From: Sporobolomyces roseus
Taxonomy: Eukaryota; Basidiomycota; Microbotryomycetes; Sporidiobolales; Sporidiobolaceae
Assembly (NCBI GenBank): GCA_016617785.1
Contig: JADILM010000011.1
Span: 186,001-250,000 of the forward strand
Direction: 5' to 3'
Length of the DNA stretch: 64,000 nt
A model generated the notes under the pieces. It had not been told where the DNA came from. It searched no databases and saw only the letters and a program-made list of their open reading frames with translations. Below, one piece after another: positions 2,638 to 64,000 of this stretch. The first letter of the stretch is position 1. The number at the start of each line of letters is the position of its first letter. A program made the translations under genes and the position numbers.

Positions 2638-4146
2638 CTAAACCTCGTTCTCTCCTTCGACGCCTAATCTCGGTGCCTTCCTCCTCAGACTCAGTATGTA
2701 CCAATTTCGTTCAGGTAGTTCTGTTTCGACGATTTCAACATTGTCGACGGATTCTGCATCTTCGAGGGAAGGAAGCGGCCAGCCGGCGTCGCGAGCCCGT
2801 TCGCGAGCCCGCCGAAGAGCACAGTGAGTTCTCCAAGTCTTGACCACAGCTCGATTGTTCTGCTCGAGCGAGAAGGCCTCCACGACTCGAGGAGCGTGCA
2901 GAACTTGCCCTCGTATCTCGACTCCATTCTGCTTCGCGACCTCGATCAGCGTCACGAGCTGATCGAAATTGAGCGATCCAGGAGACCAGTCGCTGTAGGG
3001 TAGCACTCAACCGGTCATCTTGGGGTTGGCGTCCGAATCGAAATGATCATCGAAATCGGGGTTCGAGGGGCGAGGTGTCTTTCCTCCCATGGCGGCTCCA
3101 GTCTGACAGTCCAGAGTGATGGATCGGAGGGAAGCCAACCGTGATGGGTCTAAGATGAGTGTTCGGAGTCCTACGAGGTTGATTGGGCTGTTTCCTAGAC
3201 GGAGATTGGCGAGACAGGGCAGCTGGAGGAGCGCGAAATGAAGATTTCTTGTGTAAGAGCCGTCATCGAGGTGGAGGGACCTCAGTTGTTTGAATCGGGG
3301 GAGTGACGAGTCGAGCGGGTTATTCGGTCTGACGGAAGATGTGAGGGCGAGGGAGTATAGAGTGTCCGGAAGGTGAGGCAGAAGCTGACGCATCAATTCG
3401 CCATTACGACCGTTCCCAGGATCGAGAGTGAGGTGTCTCAACGAAGGGCAGGCATCGACCAAAGCCCGACCGCTCCACCTCCAGTAACCTTGAGAGATGT
3501 GATCTTTGGAAGGACGAAGTTGTTCGAGCGACGTACTTGATCGCGGTCCTCCTCGTCCCAATCGTAGATCTCGAGCGTCTCCAGGTTTGGGAGCGATTCA
3601 TAGCGAGAGAGATCGGCGACGTCGATACGGTCCTCCTCACTGGCGCCGAGAGAGGTAACTAGTTTACGAAGGTGTGGGAAGGAGTACGTTGGCGGGCTCG
3701 TCCCGTTAAGAAGAGGAGGGGTGTAGGAGGACATGAATTCGCGAAGATTCGAGAGGAAGGGTGCCACCTTGAGGAGATTGCCTTCGCGCTCAGCGTTGTC
3801 TTCCCCCTCCGGATCGGGCATGAAGAGAATCTTGATGAGATTGCCTTTCTCTGGGTACCTTTCGAGGGTTCTGACGAGGTGACTGAAGGCTTCAAAGGAC
3901 GTTGGATAAGCGTCGCGATAAAGAGCTCGTTCGATGGAGGGTTGTGAACGCTTGGATAGGACGAGCGGGATACTCCTCCAGGAAGACTCCTCATAGTAGA
4001 AGATATGATCGAGGAGCTCAATCGGTAGAGCGGAGAGGTAATCGATTCGAGGAGGAGACTGAAGAAAGGGAGAGGTCAATCAGCACAGAGAGGATAGGGA
4101 GGATTGTGAGGTTTACTAGCTTCGAATCTGAGGGTACTGGAACCAT
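2638..4146 (-). pseudogene. F-box family copy A, broken
   Basis: Downstream member of duplicated unit 1. Exon 1 (4117-4146) encodes ten residues starting MVPVPSDSK, followed by a 58-base intron; exon 2 runs from 4058 leftward. The F-box is recognisable (LPIELLDHIF and a downstream LYRDAYPTSF segment), the leucine-rich part is degraded, and the family C-terminus is present (VEIVETELPERNWYILSL). Two lesions break it. The frame changes between 3438 and 3561, best placed near 3465-3475, where several codons found in the other copies are also missing before LVDACPSLRHL. An in-frame TGA lies at 3007-3009, just after PKMTG, and the family sequence resumes in the same frame behind it. No GT-AG intron repairs either site. 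It may still be transcribed from its intact-looking promoter, and a truncated F-box product is possible. Confidence 0.8.
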
Positions 4147-5018
4147 CCTAGACTAGTCTCGAGTCGATCTGAGTTGGTGAAGTGAAGGGAGGGAACGAGA
4201 GAGATGAAAGAATCGAAACAGCTCTTGGACCTCGATCAGTCACTCCGAATAGCTAAATGAACCGCTACAGAGTACTAGACGCCTCTCAAGATCCATTAGA
4301 GAGCGCGACTGTCCTCTCTGGACTAATCCCTCACCTTTCTTCTCTTCACTCTCATCCTCTCGACTCGACTCCTTCAACCTCGCTCAAGGACGTTCAGACA
4401 GCACTTGACCCGCTCGAATGGAGTCTGATACACTACACGTAGAAGAGAGTACATCGAAGTAATAGTAGGAAGCGAGAGGAAAAGACGATGTTCGATTTCG
4501 CAGGAGACACGGGTAGCTGAGATCCGCTAGTTCCAGTCCGTTGGTGAGGTGTACGACGGGTCAATGAAGCGATCGACTCGAGTCTCGGAAGGGGATCGAG
4601 TCACTCCAATTGAGGCAAGGAAACTACGAACAATTTTGTGAAAAGAGTCGTAGAATTGTCAAGTTTGTTTGACAGAATCATGCAAGGTAGCTATGACGGT
4701 ATTCACTCTGTCTCTTCACCGTCGGAATGGCCCGAGCCGTTGATGAGAGTAAGCGAAAGCAAAGAGACAGCAAGGTAACGTCGATTTCGCAAGCAGGCGT
4801 CGAATTCAGCCTCTCATCGTCTCCCGATTCACGATTGCTCTCTCGCTTGGAGGTACTCTGAAACTCTCGCACGTGCCATCATTTGTCAGAGAGTACAGGT
4901 AGTATCATTCCGTTTCGACAAAGCAAGCGATTACAGACTTCGTTTCCGTTCCTCCTCCACTCGTTCCCTCGTTCAAGCGTTTCGTTCTTCCCGATTTCCC
5001 TCGACCTCATTCTCAGCT
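4147..5018 (-). repeat. Conserved inter-gene module, unit 1
   Basis: This is the 872-base spacer between the 3' end of F-box copy B and the 5' end of copy A. Read on the minus strand it matches, with scattered differences, the spacers at 24719-25570 (plus strand) and 40709-41582 (minus strand). Shared landmarks are AGCGATTACA / AAGCGATTAC near the B end, GATCCGCTAGTTCCAGTC with TGTACGACGGGT in the middle, and CGATCAGTCACTCCGAATAG beside AAACAGCTCTTGG close to the downstream start. It must hold the 3' UTR of one gene and the promoter of the next. No shared reading frame runs through it. Within about 110 bases of the ATG lies the family promoter block (GAGCTGTTTCGATTCTTTCA on the coding strand). 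Confidence 0.8.
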
Positions 5019-6489
5019 TCACTCCTTGTTCCTCAAGCTCAACATGAACCACTCGCGCTCGGGTACATCGTTTTCGACGATTTCGAGCCGGTCCAAATCG
5101 AGTGAGTCGAGGTCGAGCGGTGGCAGAGTGACTCCATACTCGGCGGCGATAGATCTTGCCCTGATCAGATGAGCGAGGTCATTTAGATGAAAGGCGTAGA
5201 GAATGGATCGGTTGTGCAGCTCGATGCCGCAAGAGTGAGTTTCGAGTGCAGCGAAGACACTTCCCTCGACCTTGATCCCATGCTCCTTAGCTGCCTCAAC
5301 CACTTGCTGTACTCCTGCTTGGTCAAATGAGTCGCCGTCCTCTGCTCCCGGCAGCGTCCAGTCAAGTAACTCGATTTTGCACCTATTCAACTCTGCGACG
5401 ATGCTGAAGTCCGCGCTCGATGGTTGTACGATTTTGAAGCCCTGAATCCCTGTGTCGAAGTCGAGCGTGATCGTCTGAAGTAGAGAGAGGCGAGTCGAAC
5501 CGGTGATGAGGGAAAGGAAACCGGCAGTGTCAAGTTCTCCTGGTCCGAGGTGAATGTGAGCGAGCAAGGGAAGTTGAAGGAGGGCGGAATAAATTGTGCG
5601 ACCGTAGCATCCGTGGCCGAGGCGGAGGAATTGGAGCTGAGATAGTCGGGGAAGAATCGAATCGATGGGGGCTTCGGAAATGCTGTCACCGTGGAGACTG
5701 AGTGATCGGAGTGTAGCCGGAAGTAATGGAAGTCTCGTTGCAAACTCCAGACCTCCTTCGAATGTCGATTGGAGCTCCAAGTGAAGAATCGAAGGGCAGG
5801 CGTCAATCAAGATTTTGATGACTTCTATGTCTGCCGCTGCTCCTCGAATCTTGAGCGTCTCGATGTTGCCCAGCAACGTTAAGTCAGACAACTGATACTC
5901 CGTTTCCCCCCAATCGTAGACCTCGAGGCTCTTCAAAGCGGGGAGCAGTGCGAGTTGTGCGAGATTGTCGAGATTGAGAGGTTTCGATTCTTTCGAAGGA
6001 GGGGAGGTGGCAAAGGATTTTAGGCGTAAAAGAGAATGCGGAGAGTAGTTGGGCTCGCCTGGCGAGGCTAAGAGCTTCGGGATGTAGGGAATGTCGAGGT
6101 CGATGAGGTTCGGAAGGAGAGAGATCAGCTTTTGAAGGTCATCTTTAATCATTGGTAGTTGCACCCTAAGGAAGCTAGTGAGTTGGCCTAGGCGCGGAAT
6201 GGTAGAGATAGAATTTAGGAAGCGAGCGTTCTTTTGCGAGGAAGACAACTTCAAGACTTTGCGATAGAGGTGTTTCTCGAAGAAAGGGGAGAGGTGTTTC
6301 GAAAGGGGCTGAGAGGGAGGAGATTCATTGTAGGCGTAATGGAAGATGTCATCGAGGAGTTCGTTGGGAAGGGAGGAGAAGTAATCGATTCGAGGGGAAG
6401 GCTGAAGAAGAAGACGTTAATCAGCTTGATAGATAGCATGGGAGACTTTTGACGCTTACCTGATTCGATTCTGAGGTCACTGAACTCAT
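5019..6489 (-). CDS. F-box protein, family copy B (intact)
   Basis: Probable substrate receptor of an SCF ubiquitin ligase, inferred from the F-box. Exon 1 (6460-6489) encodes MSSVTSESNQ; a 58-base intron and exon 2 (5019-6401) follow, giving 470 residues. The F-box is at about residues 12-55 (YFSSLPNELLDDIF, then PLSKHLSPFFEKHLYRKV). The middle consists of leucine-rich stretches of the LRSLSL / LQFLRLGHGC type. The C-terminus has the family signature LPPLDLDSLDLDRLEIVE followed by EWFMLSLRNKE. It is the upstream member of unit 1 and is closest to copies D and G, which share the LPPLDLDSL motif. An ATG for the second exon is absent, so the short first exon is needed for translation. The F-box is visible; the target is unknown. 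Confidence 0.85.
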
Positions 6490-6899: not shown

Positions 6900-8279
6900 C
6901 TATCCCTTATGATTCAGATCAAACTCCCCGAGCACAAAGTTATCGATAAGCCTCGTCTTCCCCAGCATTACTGCACCACTCAATAAAGCTCCTTTCCCCT
7001 TCTCCACCTTTCCTTCGAGATCCCCCAGTTCCTCCGGGTCATTCATCGCTATATATAACAGCTTAACCTCCACTCCCTTACCCTCCTCTTTCACTGCAAC
7101 CTCAATCTTCTTGACATGTTTCTCAGCCCTTTCAATCACTCGTCGAACATCAACCGCTCCATCCCCTTCCTCCCTCTGTGAATCCCATTCCTTCTTCGCC
7201 TCTATCAGTGCATCGACGAGAACGGTGCTCCATCTGAACTCATCGGTCGAGAGGTAGGCGTTCCTACTTGATAAAGCTAGGTGGGTTTTCGGATCCCGAT
7301 AAGTTGGAAAGATGATCAAGTTTTGAGCTAGTGGTTGAGGGACATGAAGGTCGAGACAAAGTCGTCGGAGGAGTAAAGCTTGTTGGATATCTTTTTGACC
7401 AAAGTAAGCGTGCGTTGGCTGGAATCGATTTCGAGAGCTGATCAGTTTGAGAAAAGAGTAGAGTATGGTAATGGAAGAGGAAACACACTTGTACGAGATT
7501 GAAGAGTTTCAAGACGACTGTAGCTACACCTCTGAAGAATCCAGGTCTCGATTTCCCTTCCATACTGTCTTGTAATCCTTTCACTTCGATAAACGTTCCC
7601 CTTTGTTTACTCACTTCCGTGGTGATTCCACTTGGATAGAGAGCTTCGACGGGAGGAAGGAAAAGTGCTGATACTTTGCGAGGAGTTGAAGAAGAGGGAG
7701 AAGTGTAGGAACAGGTCGAGAGGGAAGAGAGATCGGATTCGAGCGTGCGAGGGTAAGTCGAGAGGTCCTCGTGAGGTGCGAATTGAGCGGGGTTGACAAA
7801 GATTGAGACGATTGTCGCGTCGTTATTCTTGAGTGACTCGTCCACTGGCATTATGGGAGAAGAGGAAAGAGTCAGTGAGACGAAGTTGGGAAGAATGTTT
7901 CCTTGCTGGAGTGAAAACGGCTCCTAACTCTTCACTCTGCGCACGAGAGCTGTAGGATACCCTTCTGAACATGTCTAGAGCTCCTCCCACCCGCTCAGAG
8001 CTAGCCTCGAAGCTAAAGGTGCTTGACGAGATCTACTGTTGTTTACCTTTCTCCCGCTCCCTCGACTCCCTCTGAGCTCCCGTCGAGGGTATAGAAAGTT
8101 CCCTTTAGAGACATAGAAGACTTACCGAGGCTCAAATGACCATCATGAAGTGCTCCCATCGTAGGAACGAACCCTACAGATTTCCCCTCTTTCTCGAATT
8201 CGGCACGCCATTCTCGTAGCTGCTTGATTGAAGTGAGGATTGGAAAGTCTGATTGAGGTAGTTGGCCATTCGTGGACAT
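6900..8279 (-). CDS. PAN6: Pantoate-beta-alanine ligase (pantothenate synthetase)
   Basis: Joins pantoate and beta-alanine using ATP to make pantothenate, the precursor of coenzyme A. Three exons (8126-8279, 7489-7844, 6900-7418) give 342 residues, near the usual fungal length. Family motifs are clear: [16 protein letters not shown] (ATP-binding HIGH-like site, about residues 36-52), [46 protein letters not shown] and the KMSK-like SSRNAYLS. The first intron is 281 bases, long for this window, and the HDGHLSL to VDESL junction keeps the frame. It starts head-to-head with the caleosin gene over 278 bases, so the two promoters probably overlap. A stretch rich in S and T ([18 protein letters not shown]) is inserted between the second and third motifs, where bacterial PanC has a shorter loop. 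Confidence 0.95.
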
Positions 8280-18335: not shown

Positions 18336-19916
18336 ATGGCTCTTGTACCCTCAGAATCGCGTTAGGTAAGCTCTCCAAGTATCCCCGCTGTCTCTCTAAG
18401 TTGATTGACCTCTCTCTCTCCTCAGTCTTCCCCTCGAATCGATTACTTCTCCTCCCTCCCCAACGAACTCCTCGATAACATCTTCGGATACCTCTATGAT
18501 CAAACCCCTCCCCCTCTTCCTCTATCCAAGCGCCTTCGACCCTGGTTCGAGATACACTTATATCGAAAACTCTCGTTCTCTTCCTTCGATTCTCTCGCTC
18601 AGTTCGCCGATGGCCTGTTCAAATCGCCGCAGATAGCGCAATACGTGCGTGTACTTAGACTGGAGGAGGAGGACACCTCAAACGATGACAGCTCGGAGGA
18701 GGACAGCAGCGAAGAGGACGCCTCCGAGGAACCGTCTCGTAAAAGTCACAGGAAGTTTCGAGAGCTGCACTCCCTCCTTCCGGCTCTGCTTCCTCTCCTG
18801 GCACACCTCGTCAAGCTCGATGTACCCTGCACCCCATCAATCCTGCCTTCCTTCGACAAACTCCTCTCCGCTCAGCCCTTTCTCCCTCGATTGCGATATC
18901 TCACAACGTCGTTCGAGACCGACGATGATGGTTTCGTCGCGCTGGACGCTCTGAAACAGTATGCCAAACTTCCCGTGCTCAAGCGGCTCAGAATCTACGA
19001 CTGGGACGAGGACGACTTTCGAAATTGTCATCGATCAGAATCTACTCTTCTCCCCGGCGTCACCACCCTCGAAATACGCGGACATGCGGCCTTCAAGTCC
19101 AGCGTTCGAACTCTTACCAGTGTCTTTCCTTCGCTTCTCCACCTCGAACTACGCTCCACCGAATCGTACGGCTCGGGCCATGTCGATTACATCCAGTGCC
19201 TTCCGAATACCCTCCTCTCACTTTCCATCTCTGCAGCCGATTTCTACGATTTTAACCCAGAATTGGCTCATCTAAGTCGACTTCGATACCTCCATCTCGG
19301 TTCCGCCTTTTCCTCCGAAGATATCTTCGAAACCCTTCTCGTTCACCTTCGCCTCGTAGAAGGAGACTACTCCCTCGACAGATTAGCGTTACTCATTCCT
19401 CGACTTCCCTGCCTCGAGATGCTCACTCTCGATATCCATGAAGGAGTGAGAGGGGAACGAATCTTGGGACCTTCAAGCGTCGGATTTGATGTCGAATCAG
19501 AAACGGGGAGATGTTCGATCCGCAACATGGAAGATGATTGGACATTGCCGGGAGAGGGAAGTGGAGGGGATCATGTCGATGTTGTAGGGCTGAGGAGAGT
19601 GATCGGGGCAGCTCAATCAAGGGGAGTAGCCGTCAACGAGAGCGCTTACTCGGTTCTTCAACTGGTGGCGGACTATCACGTCGAAGCAAATAATCGAGCT
19701 GTCGTGGCCGCCGTCAATGGAGACGATCTATGGTATCTCGAGCAAAGTTGGGAGCAAGCGGCTGTTGACGAAGTCGATTTGCCGGATTACGACCTCGGAC
19801 CGCTCATAGACCTCGAACCGGAGCAGCTCGAGATACTGGAGGAGGAGCTACCGGATAGGGATTGGTACATGTTGAGTTTGGCGAGGAAGGAGCAATATTC
19901 AGAGGAGGAACAATGA
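18336..19916 (+). CDS. F-box protein, family copy C (in-frame stop in exon 1)
   Basis: Lone family member, not part of a pair. Exon 2 (18426-19916) is fully open for 496 residues: F-box YFSSLPNELLDNIFGYLY, a unique acidic insert (SEEDSSEEDASEEPSRK) at about residue 105, leucine-rich stretches, and the family C-terminus LEILEEELPDRDWYMLSLAR. Exon 1 (18336-18365) reads MALVPSESR and then TAG, where copies B, D and F have CAG as the last codon before GTAAGC. With the intron position used by all relatives, the protein stops after nine residues. No in-frame ATG lies near the start of exon 2, and the alternative GT at 18361 shifts the frame. Either the gene is recently dead, or it uses another start, splice site or read-through. 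Exon 2 shows no other damage. Confidence 0.7.
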
Positions 19917-22844: not shown

Positions 22845-23219
22845 GGAGAAGTATGGACAGTTTTTTTCGTTATTATCATTCTTTGCTTTGTTTTTGCCCA
22901 TCTTCCGTCTAGTCTCGTGTAGCACTTTACTCTATAGCTTGGCATTCATCTATCTCTATCTCGCAGCAACCTAAGCAACCTAATCCTGTGCTCACAGCAT
23001 TACTCGCACAAGTTGCGAAAATCGGGAATTTGCGAGGAACTTGTTCGTTCCATCTCTGCTTTTGCGCTACTGCAGACTACGCGTATTCGCTCGTCGCTCA
23101 TTCGCTACGCACGCGGCAGTCCCCAATCGAGAAGAGACTTCAAGGATTCCTTATACTTTCATCTCTCTCATTCCCGCCCTTCACTTCAGCAACTCAGATC
23201 GACTCGAGATTAGTATAGG
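22845..23219. promoter_or_regulatory. ALO1 3' flank and F-box copy D promoter
   Basis: 375 bases. The last 90 carry the family promoter in shortened form (ACTTTCATCTCTC, CCGCCCTTCACTTCAGCAAC, CGAGATTAGTATAGGATG). The GAGCTGTTTCGATTC element of the other copies is not recognisable here. Confidence 0.5.
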
Positions 23220-24718
23220 ATGGCTTCAATGGCCTCAGAAATGAATCAGGTAAGCTCTCCAAGTCTCTCTACTGTCTCTGTCAGCTGCTTGACCTCTCTC
23301 CTCAGTCTTCCCCTCGAATCGGTTACTTCTCCTCCCTTCCCAACGAACTCCTCGACGACATCTTCGAATACGCTTACACCGAATCGTCTTCCTCGCAACC
23401 CCTCTCGAAACATCTTCAGTATTGGTTCGAAAAGGACTTCTATCGCAAAGTCAGCCTCAGTTCTTCCAGGCAGTTCAGCAAGTTTGCAACTCTTGCCTCT
23501 GGGAGACCCTCGATAGGACGACACGTTAGATCTCTCAAATTTGAGAACAAAGGGACGTTCAAGGTTGGACTGCATCAACTCTTTCGACATCTACCGAATC
23601 TCGTCAAACTCGACATCCCTTGCCTCCCGGCTCTCTTCCCTTCCACAGATCTTCCTGAAACTCCTGCTCCTTACCTTCTGCGACTCGAGTGTATCGCCAC
23701 ATCCCTCCCCGGTGCCCCTGAGTCAGAAGCTGTCGACCTAGATTGTCTCGCACAGCTGGCGACACTAACAGCTCTCAAGCAGCTCGGGATCTACGACTGG
23801 CACCAAGCCGATCCTCCGAACATACAGCGATCAGCCACAACACTCCTACCCGCTATCGAGACATTGTGGATTCGGGGAGACGCAGCCGATTATTCGACTC
23901 CTCTTTCACTCATCAAAGCCTGTCCTGCGCTTCTTCACCTCGAGCTCAACTCTACGTTCGTAGAAGGTTCTCTCGAGTTCCACACGTACCTTCCGTCTCT
24001 TCCGTCCAACCTTCACTCACTCAGCATTCACGGTTTGACCGACGCTCAACCTCGTGTCGACTCGGTCCTTCCATCGTTTGCCCAACTCCGTTTTCTCCGC
24101 CTCGGTGATCACTCCTACTCTCATCTTATCCACTCCGTCCTCCTCCCACTCTCATCACTCGTCCGGATCCACCTCGGCAAAGGAGTAATCGACCCCGCTG
24201 GTTTCGTCTCGCTCATTACTGGCTCGTCTCGACTCCCTTCCCTTCGAACGATCATTCTGGACTTCGACGCTGGAATCGTCGGCAGAAGGATCAAGAGGCC
24301 TTCGCGTGCTGGGTTCAACATCGAATTTGAGATGAGAAACTGTGATGTAAACATGGGTGACTGGAGTTTGTCCGGCGCGAATGACGGTCATCAATTCGAC
24401 CCTGTAGGACTGCAGCTACTTATTGAGGTAGCTAGGGAGAATGGTGTGGTCGTCGAAGGAAGCATTTTCGACGCCCTCGAGAACGCCGTCGCCTATCGCA
24501 TCGAGGCGAACAATCGAGCGACTATCGATGGCCTCGACGACAAGTATTTCGATCACCTTGAGGATGTCAGATACTTCGCCTCTTGCGATGGAGTTTCTCT
24601 TCCCCCTCTCGATCTCGACTCGCTTAATTTGGACCGACTCGAAATCGTCGAGACAGAGTTACCGGAACAAGAATGGTTCATGTTGAGCTTGAGGAACAAG
24701 GATCGCAGCGGGGAATGA
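23220..24718 (+). CDS. F-box protein, family copy D (intact)
   Basis: Upstream member of unit 2. Exon 1 (23220-23249, MASMASEMNQ), a 56-base intron, and exon 2 (23306-24718) give 480 residues without interruption. The F-box YFSSLPNELLDDIFEYAY is followed by PLSKHLQYWFEKDFYRKVSL. Leucine-rich repeats run to about residue 330. The next block, GDWSLSGANDGHQFD, occurs in related form in every copy, as does RIEANNRATID, and the end is LPPLDLDSLNLDRLEIVE with EWFMLSLRNK. By these C-terminal motifs it is the counterpart of B and G. The role in an SCF complex is inferred from the F-box alone. Confidence 0.87.
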
Positions 24719-25570
24719 GGTTGAGGGAAAGAGGGAACAACGAAACGCTTGAACGAGGGAACGAGTGGAGGAGGAATGGAATTTGTAATCGCTTGCTTTG
24801 TCGAAACGGAATGATACAGCCTTTACACTAGAACAAGTGACGGCTCGTGCGAGAGCTCAGAGTGTTTCCAGGCGAGAGAGCAGCTGTGCTTGGGCAGAAT
24901 ACAAGAGGCTGTAGTAGACGGAAGTTTGCGAAATCGACGTTGCCTCGCACTCTCGCTTCTGTATTCGCTGAGATCACTCAAGAGTCAGAAAACTGGAATC
25001 AAGAAAGGGTGCTCAACATTGCAGCTGCTTTGCATGATTCCGTCACACAGACTCGACAATAGCACGACTCTTTGCGCGAGATCTTTCGTAGTTTCCTTGC
25101 CTCGATCCGAGTGACTCGCTCCCTTCCCAGACCTCCCGTAGAGTCGATCGCTTCATTAACCCGTCGTACACCTCACCAACGGACTGGAACTAGCGGATCT
25201 CAGCTAGCCGTGTCTCCTGCGAAATCGAACATCGTCTTTTCCTCTCGCTTCCTACTGTTGCTTCGATGTTCTCTCCCCTACATAGAGTAAATCTGACCTG
25301 TTCGAGCGAGTCATTTGCTGTTTGAAGGTCCTTGATCAAGATTGAAGAAGTCGAGTCGATAGGACGAGAGAAAGAGGGAAAGGTGAGAGGTTAGTCCAGA
25401 GAGGACAGTTGCGCTCTCTAATGGATCTTGAGAGGCGTCTTGTACTCTGTAGCTGTTCATCCAGCTATTCGGAGTGACCGATCGAGGTCCAAGAGCTGTT
25501 TCGATTCTTTCATCTCTCTCGTTCCCTCCCTTCACTTCAACAACTCGGATCGTCTCGTGACCAGTCTAGG
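24719..25570 (+). repeat. Conserved inter-gene module, unit 2
   Basis: Spacer of 852 bases between copies D and E, homologous to the spacers of units 1 and 3. It begins at the D stop with GGGAACAACGAAACGCTTGA (reverse complement of TCAAGCGTTTCGTTCTTCCC in unit 1), passes through ATTCCGTCACACAGACTCGA, CCGTCGTACACCTCACCAAC and GACTGGAACTAGCGGATCTC, and ends in the family promoter just before the E start. No frame is conserved through it in all three units. Confidence 0.8.
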
Positions 25571-27114
25571 ATGGCCTCAGTACCCTCGGACTCGAATCAT
25601 GTGAGCACTAGTAGCCTCCCCGCTGTCAAACTAAGCTGATTGACGGTTGACCTCTCCCTCTTCCTCAGTCTTCCCCTCCAATCGACCACTTCTCTCATCT
25701 TCCCAACGAACTACTCGATAACATCTTCGAACTCGCTCACTACCACTCTCGTCGTCCACTTTCGAAGCGTCTTCTCCCCTTCTTCGAACCTTACCTCTAT
25801 CGCAAAGTCTCGCTCTCCTCCCTTCGACAATGCTCCCTCTTCCTCGAGTCAATCACCGCTCAATCACACAGGAGCAAGCTCGTGCAAACGCTGTCGCTCC
25901 CGTATTTCACAGAGCTGAGACCAGACTATCTCCGAATTCTCGAAAACCTCTTCCCGCTTCTCTCGAACCTCTCACACCTCGATTTCCATCATATCCACGT
26001 CTTATTCGGCCCAAAACTCACCAAAGTCAAACTACCTCCCAGTCTACGATCCCTGACAACCTCTCTCCACGATGATGATTCCTACTACGACTCGGACGAA
26101 TTTGAGCCCGACCTCGACCAACTAGTGAAGCTCGCAGACCTGCCAAACCTGAATGAACTCAGGATAGTGGGATGGGGGCCAATGTACGACTTCAGATATT
26201 CCCTGCCAACTTGGAGCACCACCGTCGAAACGCTGCGGATCGAATTCGGACACGACAACGAGTACGACGACGACACTTATTTCCTGAGGGGAATCTGCCC
26301 GGCGCTCAAGCACTTGGAAATCGTCAGTGACTCGACCAGATCGACGGACTTTGACTTACGAAATTATTCGACTTCCCTCGAATCTCTCTCTCTCACGGTC
26401 AAAGAGCGTTTTCTCGAAGACAGAGCTCCACAATTCGGAAGGTTCACTCAACTCCGCTCACTCACCCTCGGCGACGGTTGCTACACTCACCTCCTTCCCT
26501 CCTCCCTCCATTCCTTACCGTCGCTCGTCGACATCACCCTCGGCAAAGGAATCATCGACCCTGTCGCCTGGCACCCTCTCGTTTCTGGTCCAACTCGTCT
26601 CAAACATCTCAGGGTCCTCAAGCTCGACATCGCGGCCGCTGAAAGAGGTTACAAGATTCCGAAGCCCTCGACAGCCGGTTTTGAAGCAAAACGCGCAGTG
26701 AAACTTTACCCGGTCGACATGAGCGATTGGAGATTACCGAATGAATACGACCCATTCAATGACGATTTCGATGGGCAGGGAACCAGGAAATTGATCAAAT
26801 TAGCAAAGGAGAATGGGATTCAGGTCGAAGGAACGGTACTCGTAGCGCTCGAGATAATTACGGATTATTGGATCGAGAAGTACAATCGACTCACCATAGG
26901 GTTTCAAGTCACAACAGACTCTTCAGAAATCGTCTTCGCTCAAGATCAAGCTTGGAACGAGGGAGGAGTCGTTTTACCTGCCTGCACTTTCAAACCGAGG
27001 GATCGCAACTTGGTCGCGATTGATTTGCCGAAAAGGAATCGGTTCGTCTTGTGTATCAGAGACAGTGGAGGAGACAGACATCGGGAAGAGTTGGAGGACT
27101 GGGAGGATTATTAG
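25571..27114 (+). CDS. F-box protein, family copy E (intact, divergent)
   Basis: Downstream member of unit 2. Exon 1 (25571-25600, MASVPSDSNH) and exon 2 (25669-27114) give 491 residues. The F-box is LPNELLDNIFELAH with PLSKRLLPFFEPYLYRKVSL. The middle has an extra acidic stretch (DDDSYYDSDEFEPDLDQL) and FGHDNEYDDDTYFLRG, absent from B, D and G. The C-terminus has drifted: IEKYNRLTIGF replaces IEANNRAVI, and LVAIDLPKRNRFVLCIRD replaces the EIVETELPEQDWF form. The donor is GTGAGC, not GTAAGC. It is the positional counterpart of A and F, but the most diverged complete member. Confidence 0.85.
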
Positions 27115-39223: not shown

Positions 39224-40708
39224 TCACTTCCTCACACTCCTCAAGTCCAATGCAAACCAGTCTTGTTCCGGTAATTCTGTCTCGACGATTTCGAGCTCGT
39301 TCAGTTTGATCGAACAAGGAGGGAAGCCGTCTTCGAGACCCTCGCTCCTAACTTGCCGTAAGCCTACCATGTCGATAAAGTAGGTGGCGATGATGGCTCG
39401 ATTGTTCGCCTCGAGATGATAGTCATCGACCGTTTGAAGAGCTGAAAGTACTCCTCCTCCGACAGTAATCCCGTTCTCCTTTCCAACCTCGATCAGACGC
39501 TTCAAACCCAACACTTCCAGCTTGACACTATCGCTTCGCTTTGGCAACTTCCAATCGCTCATCCCGACTCGACACCTCTGTAATTCCCTCCTGGCATCAA
39601 AACCTGGCGTCGAGGGAGAGGAGATCTTTTCGCCGATACGACCAGTGTCGGCGTCGAGAATGAACGTCTTGAGGAAGAGTAGTCGATCCGGTCCAGAGAC
39701 GAGGGGAAGTAAGTTGTCAGGTTCGAGAAGCCCTTGACCAAGATGAATTTCGACGAGAAGAGGAAGTTTGAGAAGAGTTGAGGGGATACTGCTGGAATAG
39801 CAGTAGTTTCCGAGATGGAGGGATCGGAGTTGGGTGAAACCTTCGAGCGGAACCTCGTCGCGAGCTATTCCGCCGCCTTCGAATGAGATGGAGAGAGATA
39901 CAAGCGAGTTCGGGTGCTGCGACAAAGAGGCATAAAAACACACTGGTCCAACGTACGTGCTGTGCAACTCTAGATGCTCAAGTGTGGAACAGCGAGCCGT
40001 CAGACGCGCGACCGATTGATCTTCAGCTCCTGGACCCTCGACGCGAAGTCTCCGCAAACGAGACAGTGATAGCTTTTGAGCATTCTGGACGCCCTCATTA
40101 TCGACGACCGCCCAGCCGTGAAGCTCGAGGGAGACAAGACTCGGCAAGCTTTCGAGGTCGGCTAGTTGTTCGAGGTCGATACATTCGGTGTCCTCATCGC
40201 TGTAATGCGAGACAATCGAGACAGCAAGGAATTCGAGGCGGCGAGAGAGATGGAGTATGTCGGTGGGCTGCAACGAAAGGGGCGTGATGAGGGGTACATA
40301 TAGGTTGATGAGGTTCGGGAGGAAAGGTAGCAGGGATCGGAGGAAGTCGATATCCTCTTGAGAATCGGAATCACAGGAAGGGAGCGAAAGAGATCTGACG
40401 AGTTTTCCTTTGTATGATCCAGTCGAGAGACATTGGAGGAAGAGGGAACATGAGTGTCCGGAGTAGAGCGAAATCTTCGAATAGAGGTGTTTCTCGAAGA
40501 AGGGGAAGAGATGTTTCGAGAGGGGAGCAGTAGGTGCAAGGTCTTTGTAAGCGTATTCGAAGATGACATGGAGGAGTTCGTTGGGAAGGAAGGAGAAGTA
40601 ATCGGTTCGAGGGGAAGACTGAGGAGAGGGAGAGGTCAATCAGCTTGGAGAGACAGCGGGGAGACCTGGAGAGCTTACCTGATTCGTTTCTAATGGCTCA
40701 GAAGTCAT
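39224..40708 (-). CDS. F-box protein, family copy F (intact)
   Basis: Downstream member of unit 3. Exon 1 (40679-40708, MTSEPLETNQ) differs most in sequence from the other first exons but keeps the 30-base length and phase 0; the 60-base intron is followed by exon 2 (39224-40618); 474 residues. F-box YFSFLPNELLHVIFEYAYKD with PLSKHLFPFFEKHLYSKISL. The middle has LRRLRVEGPGAEDQ and LEHLELHS. The C-terminal part includes YHLEANNRAIIATYF and LNELEIVETELPEQDWFALD. It lacks the LPPLDLDSL motif of B, D and G, as expected for a downstream member. No damage is visible. Confidence 0.87.
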
Positions 40709-41582
40709 CCTATACTAATCTCGAGTCGATCTGAGTCGAGGAAGGGAAGGGCGGGAACGAGAGAGATGAAAGAATCGAAACAGCTCTTGGACCTCGATCA
40801 GTCACTCCGAATAGCTGGATGAACAGCTAGAGACTATCGAAGACCTATCAACATACTTCTGAGAGCGCGACTGCTCGCTATCGATTGATCCCTCTCCTTT
40901 CCCTCTTCTCTCATCCTCTCGACTCGACTTCTTCAATCTCGCTCAAGCACCTCCGAAAAGCAGGGGCTCCCATCCGAATGGAGTCTGATCCACTACACGT
41001 AAGAGAGAGGACATCGAAGCAATAGTAGGAAGCGGGGGAATAGACGATATTCGATTTCGCAGGAGACACGGGTAGCTGAGATCCGCTAGTTCCAGTCCGT
41101 TGTTGAGGTGTACGACGGGTCAAGGAAGGGATCGACTCTACGGGAAGTTTCGAAAGGGAGCGAGTCATTTGAATCGAGGCAATGAAAGTACGAAAGATCT
41201 CGCGAGAAGAGTCGTAGAGTAGTCTGTTTGACAGAGTCATGCAAGGCAGCTACGACGTTACTCACTCTGTCTCTTTTCACCGTCGTAGGAACACGAGTCG
41301 TCGATGAGAGTAAGCGGCAGCGGAATAGAGAGCAAGGTAACGTCCATTTCGCAAACTTCCGTCGAATACAGCCTCTCATCGTTCGCAAAATTCAACGGCG
41401 GCTCTCTCGCCTGGAGACACTCTAGAACTCTCGCACGAGTCATCATTCGTGAGAGAGTAAAGGTAGTATCATTACGTTTCGGCAAAGCAAGCGATTACAT
41501 ATTCATTCCCGTTCTTTCCTCGTTCCCTCGATCAAGCGTTTTCATCCTCTTTCCTTCCCTTCCCTTCACTCCGCCCAATCCT
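40709..41582 (-). repeat. Conserved inter-gene module, unit 3
   Basis: Spacer of 874 bases between copies G and F, read on the minus strand. It matches unit 1 almost throughout: ACTCGCACG-type start region, CAGCCTCTCATCGT, GTTTGACAGA with TCATGCAAGG, GTTGAGGTGTACGACGGGTC, CAGGAGACACGGGTAGCTGA, AGCGATTACA / AAGCGATTACATA near the G end and the promoter block beside F. The lengths (872, 852, 874) are nearly equal in the three units, which argues for duplication of complete two-gene units rather than independent gene copies. Confidence 0.82.
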
Positions 41583-43096
41583 TCATTCCTTATTCTTCAA
41601 GCTCAACACAAACCAATCTCGTTCCGGAAGATCGATTTCGACGAGTTCGAGTCGGTTGATGTCGAGGGAATCGAGGTCGAGAGGGGGAAGAGAGACTCCA
41701 GCACGGCCAGCTGCTCTCCAAATATCCTGCAGACTCTCCAAGTGTTTTTTTCGGTAGGCTGTCACAATTACCCTATTATTTGCCTCGATGTGATAATCCG
41801 TAATCATTCTAACCGCAGACTCCAAATTCCCTCTCAAGGTCAATCCATTCTCCTCTGCGATACTTTGCAACCGTTTCAAATCGAGTACGTTGGACGTGTC
41901 ATTGTCTTCCGTTCCAGGTAAGCCCCAATCCCCCATGAGCAACCCGTACCGCGAAAAGTCGGATTTGAAATCGAAACTAAAATCAGAAGCGACTGTCGAT
42001 GGTTTCGGAATTCGAGAACCGGTTGGTCCCTCGTCCAAGTCGAGCGTGAGGCGCTGCAGGGAAGCGAGACGAGAGGGTCCGACAACGTGAGACTGAAGAG
42101 GGAGAGGATCGAGCGTGCCGTGATCGAGATGAAGTTCAGTGAGGAGTGGAAGCTGCTGAAGTGCAGTGAAGAGCTTCCTTGAGTAACACCCTTCTCCAAG
42201 GTGAAGGTAACGTAGCTGGGTGAGGCGAGAGAGGAGTGAGTCGACGGGAGCTTGGGTGCGTTGTGCACCGTGAAGGTGGAGGGACTGAAGTGTCGAAGGT
42301 AGTGGAGGAAGCCTCGTCCCGAACTCGGGACCTTCATCGTAATCGGAGTCGAGCTCGAGGTGAAGCACGGAGGGACAGGTATCGAGCAAGAACTTGACGA
42401 TTTCGACATCGGCTCCCGGACCTTGTACCTTGAGCCTGGAGACGCAGGGTAGAAGCGTAGTTTCTGAGCGAAGGATGTATTGTGGTTCCGAATCTTGCCA
42501 ATCGTTGATCCTGAGTTGTTGAAGAGCGGGAAGTGCAGAGAAATGCGCGAGTAAATCGAGACTGATCAAGTTATCAGGTCCTCTGTCGGGGAGACTGGTT
42601 TCGAGGGCCTGAAGAAGCGGAAGGAATGAAGGCGAGTCGATGAGAGGGCTGATCGCAGTGCACAGAGTGGAGAGGGAAGGTGCATCAAGTTTGATCAGAT
42701 TGGGAAGAAGGGAAAGCAATCGACGTATTTTGCTTGCGAGCGCTGAAGAGTCGGGACCGGCATCTGATGAAGCGGGGAGCTGGAGAACTCGAACGAAGTG
42801 TCCTTTGGCTGGAGTTCTGCAGATCGTGAGGTGGAGTTGCTCGGAGCGAGAGAGCGAAGAGCGTGGGATGTGACGAAACAGGTGTTTCTCGAAGAAGGAG
42901 AAGAGACGCTTCGAAAGGGGGGCGGTAGGGCGAGAATCTCCGTAAGCGTAATGGAAGATGTCATCGAGGAGTTCATTGGGGAGAGAGGAGAAATGGTCGA
43001 TTTGAGGGGAAGACTGAGGAAAAGAGAGGTCAGCACAGAGAGTGTAGGGAGGATTTTGAGGCTTACTAGTCTCGAATCTGAGGGTACTGGAGCCAT
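41583..43096 (-). CDS. F-box protein, family copy G (intact)
   Basis: Upstream member of unit 3. Exon 1 (43067-43096, MAPVPSDSRL), 53-base intron, exon 2 (41583-43013); 486 residues. F-box HFSSLPNELLDDIFHYAY followed by PLSKRLFSFFEKHLFRHI. Leucine-rich segments LLSLLPNLIKLDAPS, LQQLRINDW, VLHLELDSDYDEG, LRYLHLGEGC. Then GDWGLPGTEDND, YHIEANNRVIVTAY, and LPPLDLDSLDINRLELVE with DWFVLSLKNKE. The ATG and first ten residues are almost identical to exon 1 of copy A although A is a downstream member, so promoter ends may have been exchanged between copies. Confidence 0.87.
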
Positions 43097-43527
43097 CCTA
43101 GATCACTTCGAGTCGTTCTGAGTTGCTGAAGTGAAGGGCGGGAACGAGAGAGATGAAAGAATCGAAACAGCTCTTGACCCTCGACCAACCACTTTGAACA
43201 ATCTGACAGACCAGACTGACAGTACAATGGAGCGAGGGAGTTTCGTCGGACCTCCTTTGCAACCCTGCGATCCCTTTAGTCGCTGCGTTCGCTTCCTCGA
43301 CGCTTCCAACCTCCTTTCAAGCTGGACTAAGCGCTTCCTGCGTCGATCTCCAGCTGGCTAGTGACTCAAGGGGTTGATGAACTACTGCAAACCTGCTCGT
43401 GCTATTCTCTTGACCGAGTCCGTGCTGCACGCTTCGTTGTTTCGCACGGTTTTCGTTTCTTGTCTGCTCCTCCTCATTCTGTCCTCACTCTTGAAGAGTC
43501 AACATACGTCGATCAGCTCTAGCACCC
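43097..43527. promoter_or_regulatory. F-box copy G promoter and flank
   Basis: The first 100 bases hold the family promoter on the minus strand (TGAAGTGAAGGGCGGGAACG, GAAAGAATCGAAACAGCTCT, TGACCCTCGACCAACCACTT), nearly the same as that of copy C. Beyond 43200 nothing is recognised. Confidence 0.55.
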
Positions 43528-60810: not shown

Positions 60811-63133
60811 ATGAACGATGTAGCAACCATTTGTTCAGGCTTGATTCGTTTATCGATCGCAACTCGAAACCTACGAGCGACGAGGTCTACCTTGACTGGC
60901 TTACGAAGTCAGCAACCACCTCAGCATCACCACCACGAAGAAGCCATTCTCCCAGCTCCTCCTTCTCCTTCTCCCCTCGATTCTTCCAAATCGTTCAACT
61001 CTCTCATCGTACCTCGGCCATCGCCTCAACAGATCGAAGTCAAAGATGATATTCAACATGTTCCATCGGATCTTCCAAAGGTACTCCCTCGCTCACGCTC
61101 ACCCGAAACCTCTATCGACCCTCCGATTCCAAATCTCGCAACTCCTCCCTCCATTTCCTCGCCTCGAATACAACCCGTGCAGCCCGAATCTTCTCGTCTT
61201 GTCGACAGTGAGCCGGAGTTAGAGGATAGACTGGACAGTCGATTGGCGAGCAACGAGTCGGGAGACGGTCAAGTTACTGCAGAACAAGTTGTTGACATTG
61301 TGAGATAATCTTCTTTTCTTCTGTCGATGAGAGTCCAGCTAACCAGCTTTCTCCGCAAGTACAGAATAATCTGAAGTCCTCGAAAGTTCCGAGCTCTCGT
61401 TTGGGACGCCTCATGCATTACGGAGGTCAGTTCTCCTTCCCTCGCGAGGCAAAAATCGTAAGGGACTCATTTTCGCTTTTCTTCGATTTTCAGGTCTCGC
61501 TGCCGGTCTCGGTTTCGGTATGGCTTCGGAAGCTATTCGAAGAACTACTTATGGTTCCTCGAGTGGCGCCGATCAGCCCGGACTGCTTCTAAGCGAGGCT
61601 AACATCGAACGTCTCGTCAACAAACTTTCGAAAATGCGAGGTGCAGCTCTCAAACTCGGTCAATTCCTCAGTATACAAGGTGAGCGTCTCGACTGGACTG
61701 TCATAAATCCGTAACGTGGCTCATGTGTTGTGAGCGTCGTGTCAAGATACGAAATTGCTCTCTCCACAACTCGAGGCAGTTTTACATCGAGTTCAGAATA
61801 GTGCGAATTACATGCCGGAATGGCAGACTGAGGTATGCTCTTACTATATCTCTGATCATATACTATTGAGTGCACCCTGACGAGGCTTCGAACAGCGAGT
61901 CCTCTCGCAAGATCTAGGTTCGGATTGGCAGCAACATTTCGAAACATTCGAGATGAGACCATTCGCAGCGGCTTCGATCGGACAAGTACACTCGGCAGTC
62001 CTCTCATCTGACTCGCCGTTGGCCAGCAAGTATGGTCAGTCGCTCAAGGTCGCAGTCAAGGTTCAATTCCCAGGAGTTCGACAGTCAATCTCGAGCGACC
62101 TCTCAAACTTGAAATGGCTCTTACTCGCAACTTCGGTTCTACCTCGAGGACTCTATCTCGACAATACGCTCAAGGTACTCGAGCGTGAACTCGTCGACGA
62201 ATGCAACTATGAAAGGGAGGCAGATTTCGGTCATCGAATGGGCAAGCTCGTTCAATCTTCGAAACTCGCTCGGGATTTCGCCGTACCCAAAGTAGTCAAG
62301 GAGCTGTCCGGCTCGATGGTTCTCACTACCGAAATGATGTATGGCAAGCCATTGAAGGCTGCATTGGATGTAGAGCAGGAGAAACGAGATTGGGTGAGTT
62401 TCGCCTTTTCACGCCCCTTCTCGAAGTTTACCGTTCTAATCGGATATCGGAGGTTCTCGGTGTAGATCGGCACTCGAATTCTCGACTTATGTCTGCACGA
62501 GCTGTTCAGTTTCCGGATCATGCAAACCGATCCAAACTGGAGCAATTTCCTCTATAACGAACGAACAAAAAAGGTGAGTCTCTGTTCTTTCGCTACTCCT
62601 GTTCGCGTGAGTTGACTTGTACACGAATAGATCGAGCTTATCGACTTTGGAGCGAGTCAAGAATACAGCGAACGATTCATCGAAAACTATGGAAATCTAC
62701 TTTCTTGCGCGGTTTCGGAAGACCGTGAAGGGTCAATAAGGTTCTCTCGAGAACTTGGGTACCTCACAGGAGAAGAGAATGAGGTGAGGATCTCGTGTGC
62801 TTTCCCGCTTGACCTAGATCGCTACTGACGACACGCTTGATTTCCTCGACGCAGGAAATGATTTCGGCGCATCTCACTTCTCTATTCGCGCTCGCGCTAC
62901 CGTTCCGTCAATCTTCGCCATCACCCTTTCCATTCGGTACTATGGGCCCACAGATCACCTCGACGGTTCGAAGTCAGATACCGATCATGCTCAAGCATCG
63001 ATTGACCCCTCCTCCGGAAGAAACCTACAGTCTGAATCGCAAACTCAGCGGAGCGTTCCTTCTGTGTGAACGATTAGCGGCTCGCGTAGACTCCCAAGGC
63101 ATGTATCGAAACGCTGTCGGACATACTCGCTGA
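60811..63133 (+). CDS. COQ8: COQ8 / ABC1 atypical kinase
   Basis: ATPase-like member of the UbiB family in the mitochondrial matrix, required for coenzyme Q biosynthesis. ATG at 60811; about nine exons. The N-terminus ([18 protein letters not shown]) looks like a targeting peptide; a P/S-rich stretch follows. Family marks: [16 protein letters not shown] (the KxGQ motif), [17 protein letters not shown] (Ala-rich loop in place of a P-loop), [14 protein letters not shown] (ATP-binding Lys), [65 protein letters not shown] (DFG). The end is [17 protein letters not shown]. It is the nearest neighbour of the pheromone gene, at 760 bases, tail-to-tail. Confidence 0.95.
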
Positions 63134-63891
63134 TGCGTACGCGATCCTTCCTAGCCGCTGAAATCCGCAAGACTTCGTTTCGCACCGTAAAATGCAGAGG
63201 AAGCTAGTCGAGAGTCGAGAGTCGAGAGTCGAGTGCATATCATGAGCTTCGCCGTGTAGGCGCTCTCGCGACCAGTAGGCGCTTGAATCATCGATTGAAG
63301 TTCCCGCCACCGATGGCTCCGCGACTGGTTCTGCACAGTCCTTATACTCTCGCAGCATAGACGTCTAAAGGACATCAATATATTTGCGCGCTTTCCTCCG
63401 ATTCGTTGTTCGCATAGATACCCATTTGCAATTCTTCGTCTGTTTTCCTTTCGAAGCTGCAAAGCCTGCGATTTCTTTCTCCTTGCCGTTCGCCTTATTC
63501 CGCGTTCTGCGCTTCGAGAGAGAATTGAAAGAGAGCAGTATGACAGAGTGCTTCAAACGAGACGAGACGATGTCCGCCGAGCTGAAAACGGCTATAGGGC
63601 GAACGAGGGGAGAAGGAACGAAATAATAAAGATAGTTGCAAACTGCCTAGAACTATGCCACCGACGAACGAACAACATCAAGGTAGAAAGGTAAACAACG
63701 AGTAGGGACAGCAAGCGAGGGGAAGAAGTGGGAATAGGTGCGAAAAGAAGGAAAGATGCGATCCGGATGGAGGAGACTTCTGGGTCGAGTAAGAGACGAG
63801 TCAGCGATGGAGGGAAGCAACGACGATTGTGAGAGGTCTGAAGACGTACCGATTGAGATTGGGTAGCGAAGATCAGTCCTATCGACCGTCC
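63134..63891. other. Gap between COQ8 and the pheromone precursor
   Basis: About 760 bases between two convergent stop codons, longer than other tail-to-tail gaps here (5-340). No gene is supported. It contains a short tandem repeat (63207-63233) and probably the long 3' UTR of the pheromone gene. Confidence 0.5.
63207..63233. repeat. Short tandem repeat, period 7
   Basis: GTCGAGA repeated three times plus a partial copy. It lies between COQ8 and the pheromone gene; no function is apparent. Confidence 0.85.
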
Positions 63892-64000
63892 TTAAGCGAC
63901 AACGCATCCAGGCATAGTGTGTCCAATGGTAGGGTAGCTCTTCGAAACGACACAGCCAGGCATGGTGTGACCGATGGTGGGGTACGCCTTGGAGATAGTG
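63892..64000 (-). CDS. Farnesylated mating pheromone precursor, 3' end (cut by window edge)
   Basis: Reading leftward from the edge: TISKA, YPTIGHTMPGC, VVSKS, YPTIGHTMPGC, VVA, TAA (63892-63894). The same 11-residue peptide occurs twice with a period of 48 bases and synonymous differences. The end CVVA is a CaaX box, the signal for farnesylation of the Cys. Rhodotorucine A, the lipopeptide pheromone of Rhodotorula toruloides, is an 11-residue Y-P-...-G-C peptide with a farnesyl Cys, released from a precursor with several copies. The design here is the same: Tyr-Pro start, Gly-Cys end, and a Lys-containing spacer (VVSKS) between copies. The TISKA before the first visible copy looks like another spacer, so at least three copies are expected. 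The mature form (farnesyl, possibly methylated) is inferred. The 5' part lies outside the window. Confidence 0.88.
   Translation of the reverse strand, partial: TISKAYPTIGHTMPGCVVSKSYPTIGHTMPGCVVA

Follow-up and report, generated by a model that had tools for sequence, protein, structure and literature searches.

A rhodotorucine-A-type pheromone gene, very probably one of three identical copies in the pheromone/receptor locus of a MAT A1 red yeast

Rhodotorucine A, the sequence of which we take to be YPEISWTRNGC, is the classic example of a multi-copy farnesylated pheromone. Its precursors in Rhodosporidium toruloides MAT A1 carry tandem copies of an 11-mer that starts with Tyr-Pro and ends with Gly-Cys, separated by Lys-bearing, CaaX-like spacers. 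The broader picture of the red-yeast MAT A1 locus comes from PMC3236058. In most of the MAT A1 red yeasts examined there, RibL18ae and RibL6/RNAPOL stand on either side of STE3.A1; primers placed in STE20 and in KAP95 served to amplify RHA2 of S. salmonicolor; and in both S. salmonicolor and R. toruloides the MAT A1 pheromone genes lie in conserved inverted repeats, the conservation being likely due to gene conversion. The same source has a supplementary figure the caption of which names RHA1, RHA2 and RHA3 of Sporobolomyces sp. IAM 13481, and reports a disturbed order in R. paludigenum MAT A1 and S. ruineniae; the term "rhodotorucine" is absent from its main text. In the published map of S. 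roseus, PAN6 lies on the STE3 scaffold (scaffold 9; PMC2916851), and the main text of that paper contains none of the terms RHA, rhodotorucine, STE20 and KAP95. A more distant comparison is offered by Microbotryum lychnidis-dioicae, in which the a1 mating-type chromosome carries the pheromone receptor and STE20 and the HD1 and HD2 genes are adjacent and divergent (PMC4469406), as they are here. A broad transposon-rich non-recombining region is a feature of that a1 chromosome.

The DNA described here ends within a gene of this kind. Its last 109 bases very probably belong to a rhodotorucine-A-type farnesylated pheromone gene, of which they form the 3' end and which has three identical copies within the pheromone/receptor (PR) locus of a MAT A1 red yeast, one of the Sporidiobolales or their close kin. 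Both the gene type and the layout are known; the peptide differs from classic rhodotorucine A, sharing six of 11 positions with the sequence given above.

The precursor gene and the predicted maturation of its peptide

The window, that is, the whole stretch of 64,000 nucleotides that was analysed, corresponds to C11:186001-250000, on one of the 15 contigs of a 22.4 Mb genome. The gene, here PHE1, runs across its right-hand end:

Window 63892-64000, minus strand: 3' part of PHE1 (RHA-like), with the last two repeats, CVVA and the stop, from the ORF translation
C11:249892-250137 (63892-64137 in window numbering), minus strand: full coding sequence of PHE1, from the frame extended past the window end

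The minus-strand frame at 63892-64000 reads TISKA-YPTIGHTMPGC-VVSKS-YPTIGHTMPGC-VVA-stop and thus contains what an earlier note on this DNA had described, namely two exact copies of YPTIGHTMPGC, 48 bases apart, and a CVVA-stop end; codon comparison of both copies confirmed that they differ only at wobble positions. The further repeats and the start codon predicted to the right of position 64000 are also there, as three more copies and an ATG at C11:250137 (start context CACCATGG); upstream of this ATG the frame contains no Met as far as the nearest stop. The coding sequence of 246 bases gives 81 residues: five 16-codon units preceded by MVA, with CVVA-stop at the end. The 11-mer is exact in all five units of the precursor, and the Lys-bearing spacers differ in amino acids (CVVSKS, CVVAKA, CTISKA, CVVSKS and CVVA-stop). 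A short precursor with a terminal CaaX box is what is expected of a fungal farnesylated (a-factor-like) pheromone, and tandem identical 11-mers with Lys-bearing spacers are features of the RHA type, as in rhodotorucine A. Compared with the rhodotorucine A precursors, the unit here has 16 codons with Lys and then Ser/Ala before Tyr, and there are three genes, each with five copies and an identical coding sequence. From Pfam, nothing above cut-off was obtained with the precursor, the best match being Hormone_6 (16.4 bits against a cut-off of 25, E = 0.009).

Across the five units, eight of the 11 third positions of the core codons vary and none of the 22 first and second positions does (Fisher p = 1.2e-5), a value to be read with the fact that, the three genes being identical, no more than five units count as independent, and even those share a history of duplication. 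For units with such a history, the codon-position pattern fits selection keeping the peptide, as the earlier note had proposed.

As regards maturation, CaaX-like tetrapeptides begin at each Cys (CVVS, CVVA, CTIS, CVVS and CVVA), and each Cys would be prenylated and carboxymethylated, the precursor being cut at the Lys-bearing spacers to release five peptides. The residue before Tyr is always small (A, S, A, A and S in the five copies), and Lys stands at -2 in four of them, the first copy (MVA-Y) having none. Ser or Ala separates Lys from Tyr, so that trypsin-like cleavage would not by itself yield the 11-mer: a cut after Lys would leave Ser/Ala-YPTIGHTMPGC, to be trimmed further to the 11-mer or kept as a 12-mer with a mixed first residue. 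A mature 12-mer, in which Lys marks the cut site and the next residue is retained, would account for the constantly small residue before Tyr and for the Lys at -2 in four of the five copies; it is nonetheless somewhat unlikely, given that the alternation of Ser and Ala would produce two mature forms from a precursor in which the 11-mer itself is invariant, and that the first copy has no Lys at all. The 11-mer is thus the probable mature peptide, because it alone is invariant. Among the enzymes that such a maturation would require, prenyltransferase-family matches number nine at three places in the genome (none in the 14 control genomes), and there is one match to the ICMT family, a family that also matches in five of 14 prokaryote controls, which makes this match weak support. 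Such enzymes may thus be present; the matches do not imply that they act on YPTIGHTMPGC. The released peptides would bind the STE3 receptor of the opposite mating type, while the strain's own STE3 would detect the pheromone of the partner.

Gene order around STE20 and STE3

The neighbourhood of PHE1 was typed from one or few exons per gene, most often from a single exon, and its main features are the following:

Window 7267-7923, minus strand: PAN6 exon (pantoate-beta-alanine ligase; PF02569, 115.5 bits)
Window 60811-63133, plus strand: COQ8/ABC1-type kinase gene of several exons (PF03109, 116 bits in exon 61953-62465; outer limits by eye)
C11:250722-253426, plus strand: STE20, with PH, PBD and kinase domains (Pfam; stop read by eye)
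C11:254019-254264, plus strand: PHE2, coding sequence identical to that of PHE1
C11:266493-267781, plus strand: STE3, four exons, with a splice model built here
C11:270979-271224, plus strand: PHE3, coding sequence identical to that of PHE1

The order is COQ8, PHE1 (minus), STE20 (plus), PHE2 (plus), a KAP95-like gene (minus), OST48 (plus), RPL18ae (plus), STE3 (plus), RPL6 (minus), an RNA polymerase subunit (plus) and PHE3 (plus), and then ASF1. The proximity of STE20 and of a STE3-type receptor, the latter within 50 kb, had been anticipated in the earlier note: STE20 lies directly beside PHE1, and a complete STE3 stands between PHE2 and PHE3 at 16.4 kb from PHE1. The STE3 protein matches the Pfam STE3 profile with 296.6 bits over 292 of 292 profile positions, and the three STE3 matches in the genome are all exons of this one gene, with none in 14 control genomes; a search of the 22.4 Mb genome found no second STE3 gene, and a search by sequence (E up to 0.1) found no solved structure for the receptor. 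The gene between OST48 and RPL18ae resembles EMC1 by eye, and the exon tested had no Pfam match.

When this order is compared with the text of PMC3236058, rather than by alignment, each of the points given above from that source for MAT A1 is matched. The Pfam families L18A, STE3, L6 and RNA_pol_L follow one another in that order, so that STE3 has the same flanks, RPL18ae and RPL6/RNA polymerase subunit, as in the Sporidiobolales MAT A1 locus (S. salmonicolor, Sporobolomyces sp. IAM 13481). PHE2 lies between STE20 and the KAP95-like importin-beta gene, that is, in the position of RHA2, and the three genes set in inverted repeats correspond to RHA1-RHA3 and to the repeats reported there, including those of R. 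toruloides MAT A1. The architecture is therefore one already known, and the order of the genes and the type of pheromone make MAT A1 the most likely mating type of the strain. PAN6, which PMC2916851 places on the STE3 scaffold, can be used as a synteny marker and is found on C11 as well. On the window side the neighbour of PHE1 is the COQ8/ABC1-type gene, which agrees with the claim that the gene marks the edge of a pheromone/receptor block, the other side having the MAT A1 order of PMC3236058; a COQ8/ABC1 gene bordering the locus was not found in the published descriptions consulted, and ABC1 does not occur in the main text of PMC2916851. Taken together, the full precursor, STE3, STE20 and the gene order support the multi-copy farnesyl pheromone precursor of rhodotorucine A design originally put forward. 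The result is a complete, chemically testable pheromone sequence with its locus (three pheromone genes, receptor and kinase), most likely from a red yeast, and it would allow pheromone-receptor specificity to be compared with that of rhodotorucine A by means of synthetic peptides.

Some other features of the window may be recorded here. The stretch that separates the COQ8-type gene from the outer border of the repeat unit with PHE1 contains a perfect 7-base tandem repeat (AGTCGAG, four times, window 63206-63233). A local cluster of seven ORFs of one family occupies window 3441-6416, 18405-19913, 23219-27111 and 39227-43097; they start with a motif of the LPNELLDDIF type that looks F-box-like by eye, and weak matches to LRR profiles come after it. 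One of the seven (39227-40639, LRR_At5g56370) has a Pfam match above cut-off. With one member as query, 90 genome matches were obtained (86 of 126 candidates scored; several may share one gene), and nine of the ten best, the query included, are on C11 at 133-229 kb, beside the mating-type locus.

Three pheromone genes in near-identical repeat units

A degenerate pattern for the 11-mer has 15 matches in the genome (10 on one strand and five on the other, against none for the reversed pattern), and these are the units of three five-repeat genes with identical coding sequences. No further diverged pheromone genes came out of a protein search of the genome (E up to 10, best candidates scored, introns unmodelled), and a scan of 139 kb for YP.I..T..GC gave nothing beyond the 15 known units. 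Each gene is embedded in a longer repeat:

C11:249268-250679 (window part 63268-64000): repeat unit 1, which holds PHE1
C11:253477-254889: repeat unit 2, inverted relative to unit 1 and 99.8% identical to it
C11:270360-271701: repeat unit 3, inverted relative to unit 1 and matching C11:249415-250756

The units are 1.27-1.41 kb long and 99.8-99.9% identical, with two mismatches and one gap in 1413 aligned positions between units 1 and 2, three mismatches in 1342 positions between units 1 and 3, and one mismatch in 1265 positions between units 2 and 3. Units 1 and 2 face outward on either side of STE20, which lies wholly between them, and unit 3 is 17 kb further on; pheromone genes embedded in inverted repeats are characteristic of the RHA type.

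Tandem repeats are common in wall proteins, and a repeat-bearing secreted or cell-wall protein, unrelated to mating and with CaaX-like repeat ends arisen by chance, could also lack a Pfam match above cut-off as this precursor does. Such a reading has a practically negligible probability and was rejected because of the position and the pattern of the copies: three identical ones lie beside STE20 and around STE3, in places like those of the RHA genes in PMC3236058. Moreover, the protein search described above, at E up to 10, gave only the three genes, and the MVA-Y start was judged by eye to have no signal peptide. The earlier note had named occurrence of the repeat in an unrelated secreted family as evidence against a pheromone; in this genome it is found only in the three PHE genes. 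That they are truly three could be doubted, the units being 99.8-99.9% identical, as would be seen if fewer real genes had been multiplied in the assembly. An artefact of this sort is very improbable: every copy has its own flanks and breakpoints, small differences separate all three pairs of units, and RHA1, RHA2 and RHA3 are likewise figured for Sporobolomyces sp. IAM 13481 (PMC3236058, figure caption).

With three real pheromone genes as the preferred reading, the borders of the units, which differ among the three, bear on their history. The match of unit 2 to unit 1 ends at C11:250679, short of the STE20 ATG, whereas that of unit 3 reaches C11:250756, which is 35 bases inside STE20 (ATG at 250722); the edge of unit 3 (C11:270360-270394) is accordingly a relic of STE20, namely of its first 35 bases. 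Because of this extension into STE20, a pheromone-STE20 junction such as the one at copy 1 is the probable origin of copy 3. Copies P1 and P3 have additional upstream sequence in common, and P1 and P2 additional downstream sequence; at two bases P2 and P3 agree with each other and differ from P1, for which a change in P1 alone would also account. Inverted-repeat pheromone genes are known in other red yeasts and the arrangement is thus probably old; together with the near-identity of the three units, this suggests continued homogenisation by gene conversion, which is the most likely way in which they are kept alike, recent re-duplication being expected to look the same from this genome alone. 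The STE20 relic in copy 3 and the differing unit borders offer a concrete case of multiplication and homogenisation of pheromone genes in a mating-type region. It has also to be considered that the near-perfect inverted repeats that enclose STE20 (2.8 kb) and the STE20-to-STE3 block (about 20 kb) could serve as a switch by which inversions recur within MAT A1. This idea is a doubtful one; if it held, recombination between the units would flip STE20 or the entire receptor block and leave the pheromone genes and their promoters intact, and it would be a source of the inversions that block recombination between mating types.

Promoter motifs and the HD locus

The hexamer ACAAAG, counted on either strand, occurs 117 times in 139 kb (0.84 per kb). 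Each pheromone promoter contains five in the 300 bases before the ATG, and these are the three densest clusters of the 139 kb (Poisson p = 7e-6 for each, uncorrected for scanning; the three clusters are copies of one another). Two sites are found in the 300 bases before STE3 and none in the 300 bases before STE20; around the HD genes the motif is not enriched, its eight occurrences in 10 kb being close to the background. In each pheromone promoter one site is ACAAAGGGA, which we take to be the Ustilago Prf1 response element, and the same 9-mer is present at five other places in the 139 kb. The five ACAAAG sites per promoter are probably HMG-factor response elements that would raise expression on pheromone signalling, and the clusters point to a testable pheromone-response element.

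The second mating-type locus is on another contig:

C8:1183481-1186392: HD1/HD2, divergent homeodomain pair (Pfam and position)

HD1 matches PF05920 with 49.4 bits in the ORF scan, and the HD2 homeodomain scores 23.7 bits in the genome search (cut-off 22.9) and 21.4 bits, below cut-off, in the ORF scan; the last ORF of the span has no Pfam match and was taken as an HD2 exon by position. A pseudo-bipolar system would have the HD and PR loci in partial linkage on a single chromosome. HD1/HD2 are on C8 and the PR locus is on C11, and a chromosome that comprised both contigs would separate the two loci by at least 749 kb. No TTAGGG/CCCTAA telomere repeats are present at either end of C11 or C8, and in the first 600-1000 bases of the 15 contigs only C6 opens with a telomere-like run (three CCCTAA), C3 and C14 having one stray TTAGGG each. 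The first kilobase sampled from C15 (64.5 kb) looks mitochondrial by eye, with a NADH dehydrogenase-like reading frame.
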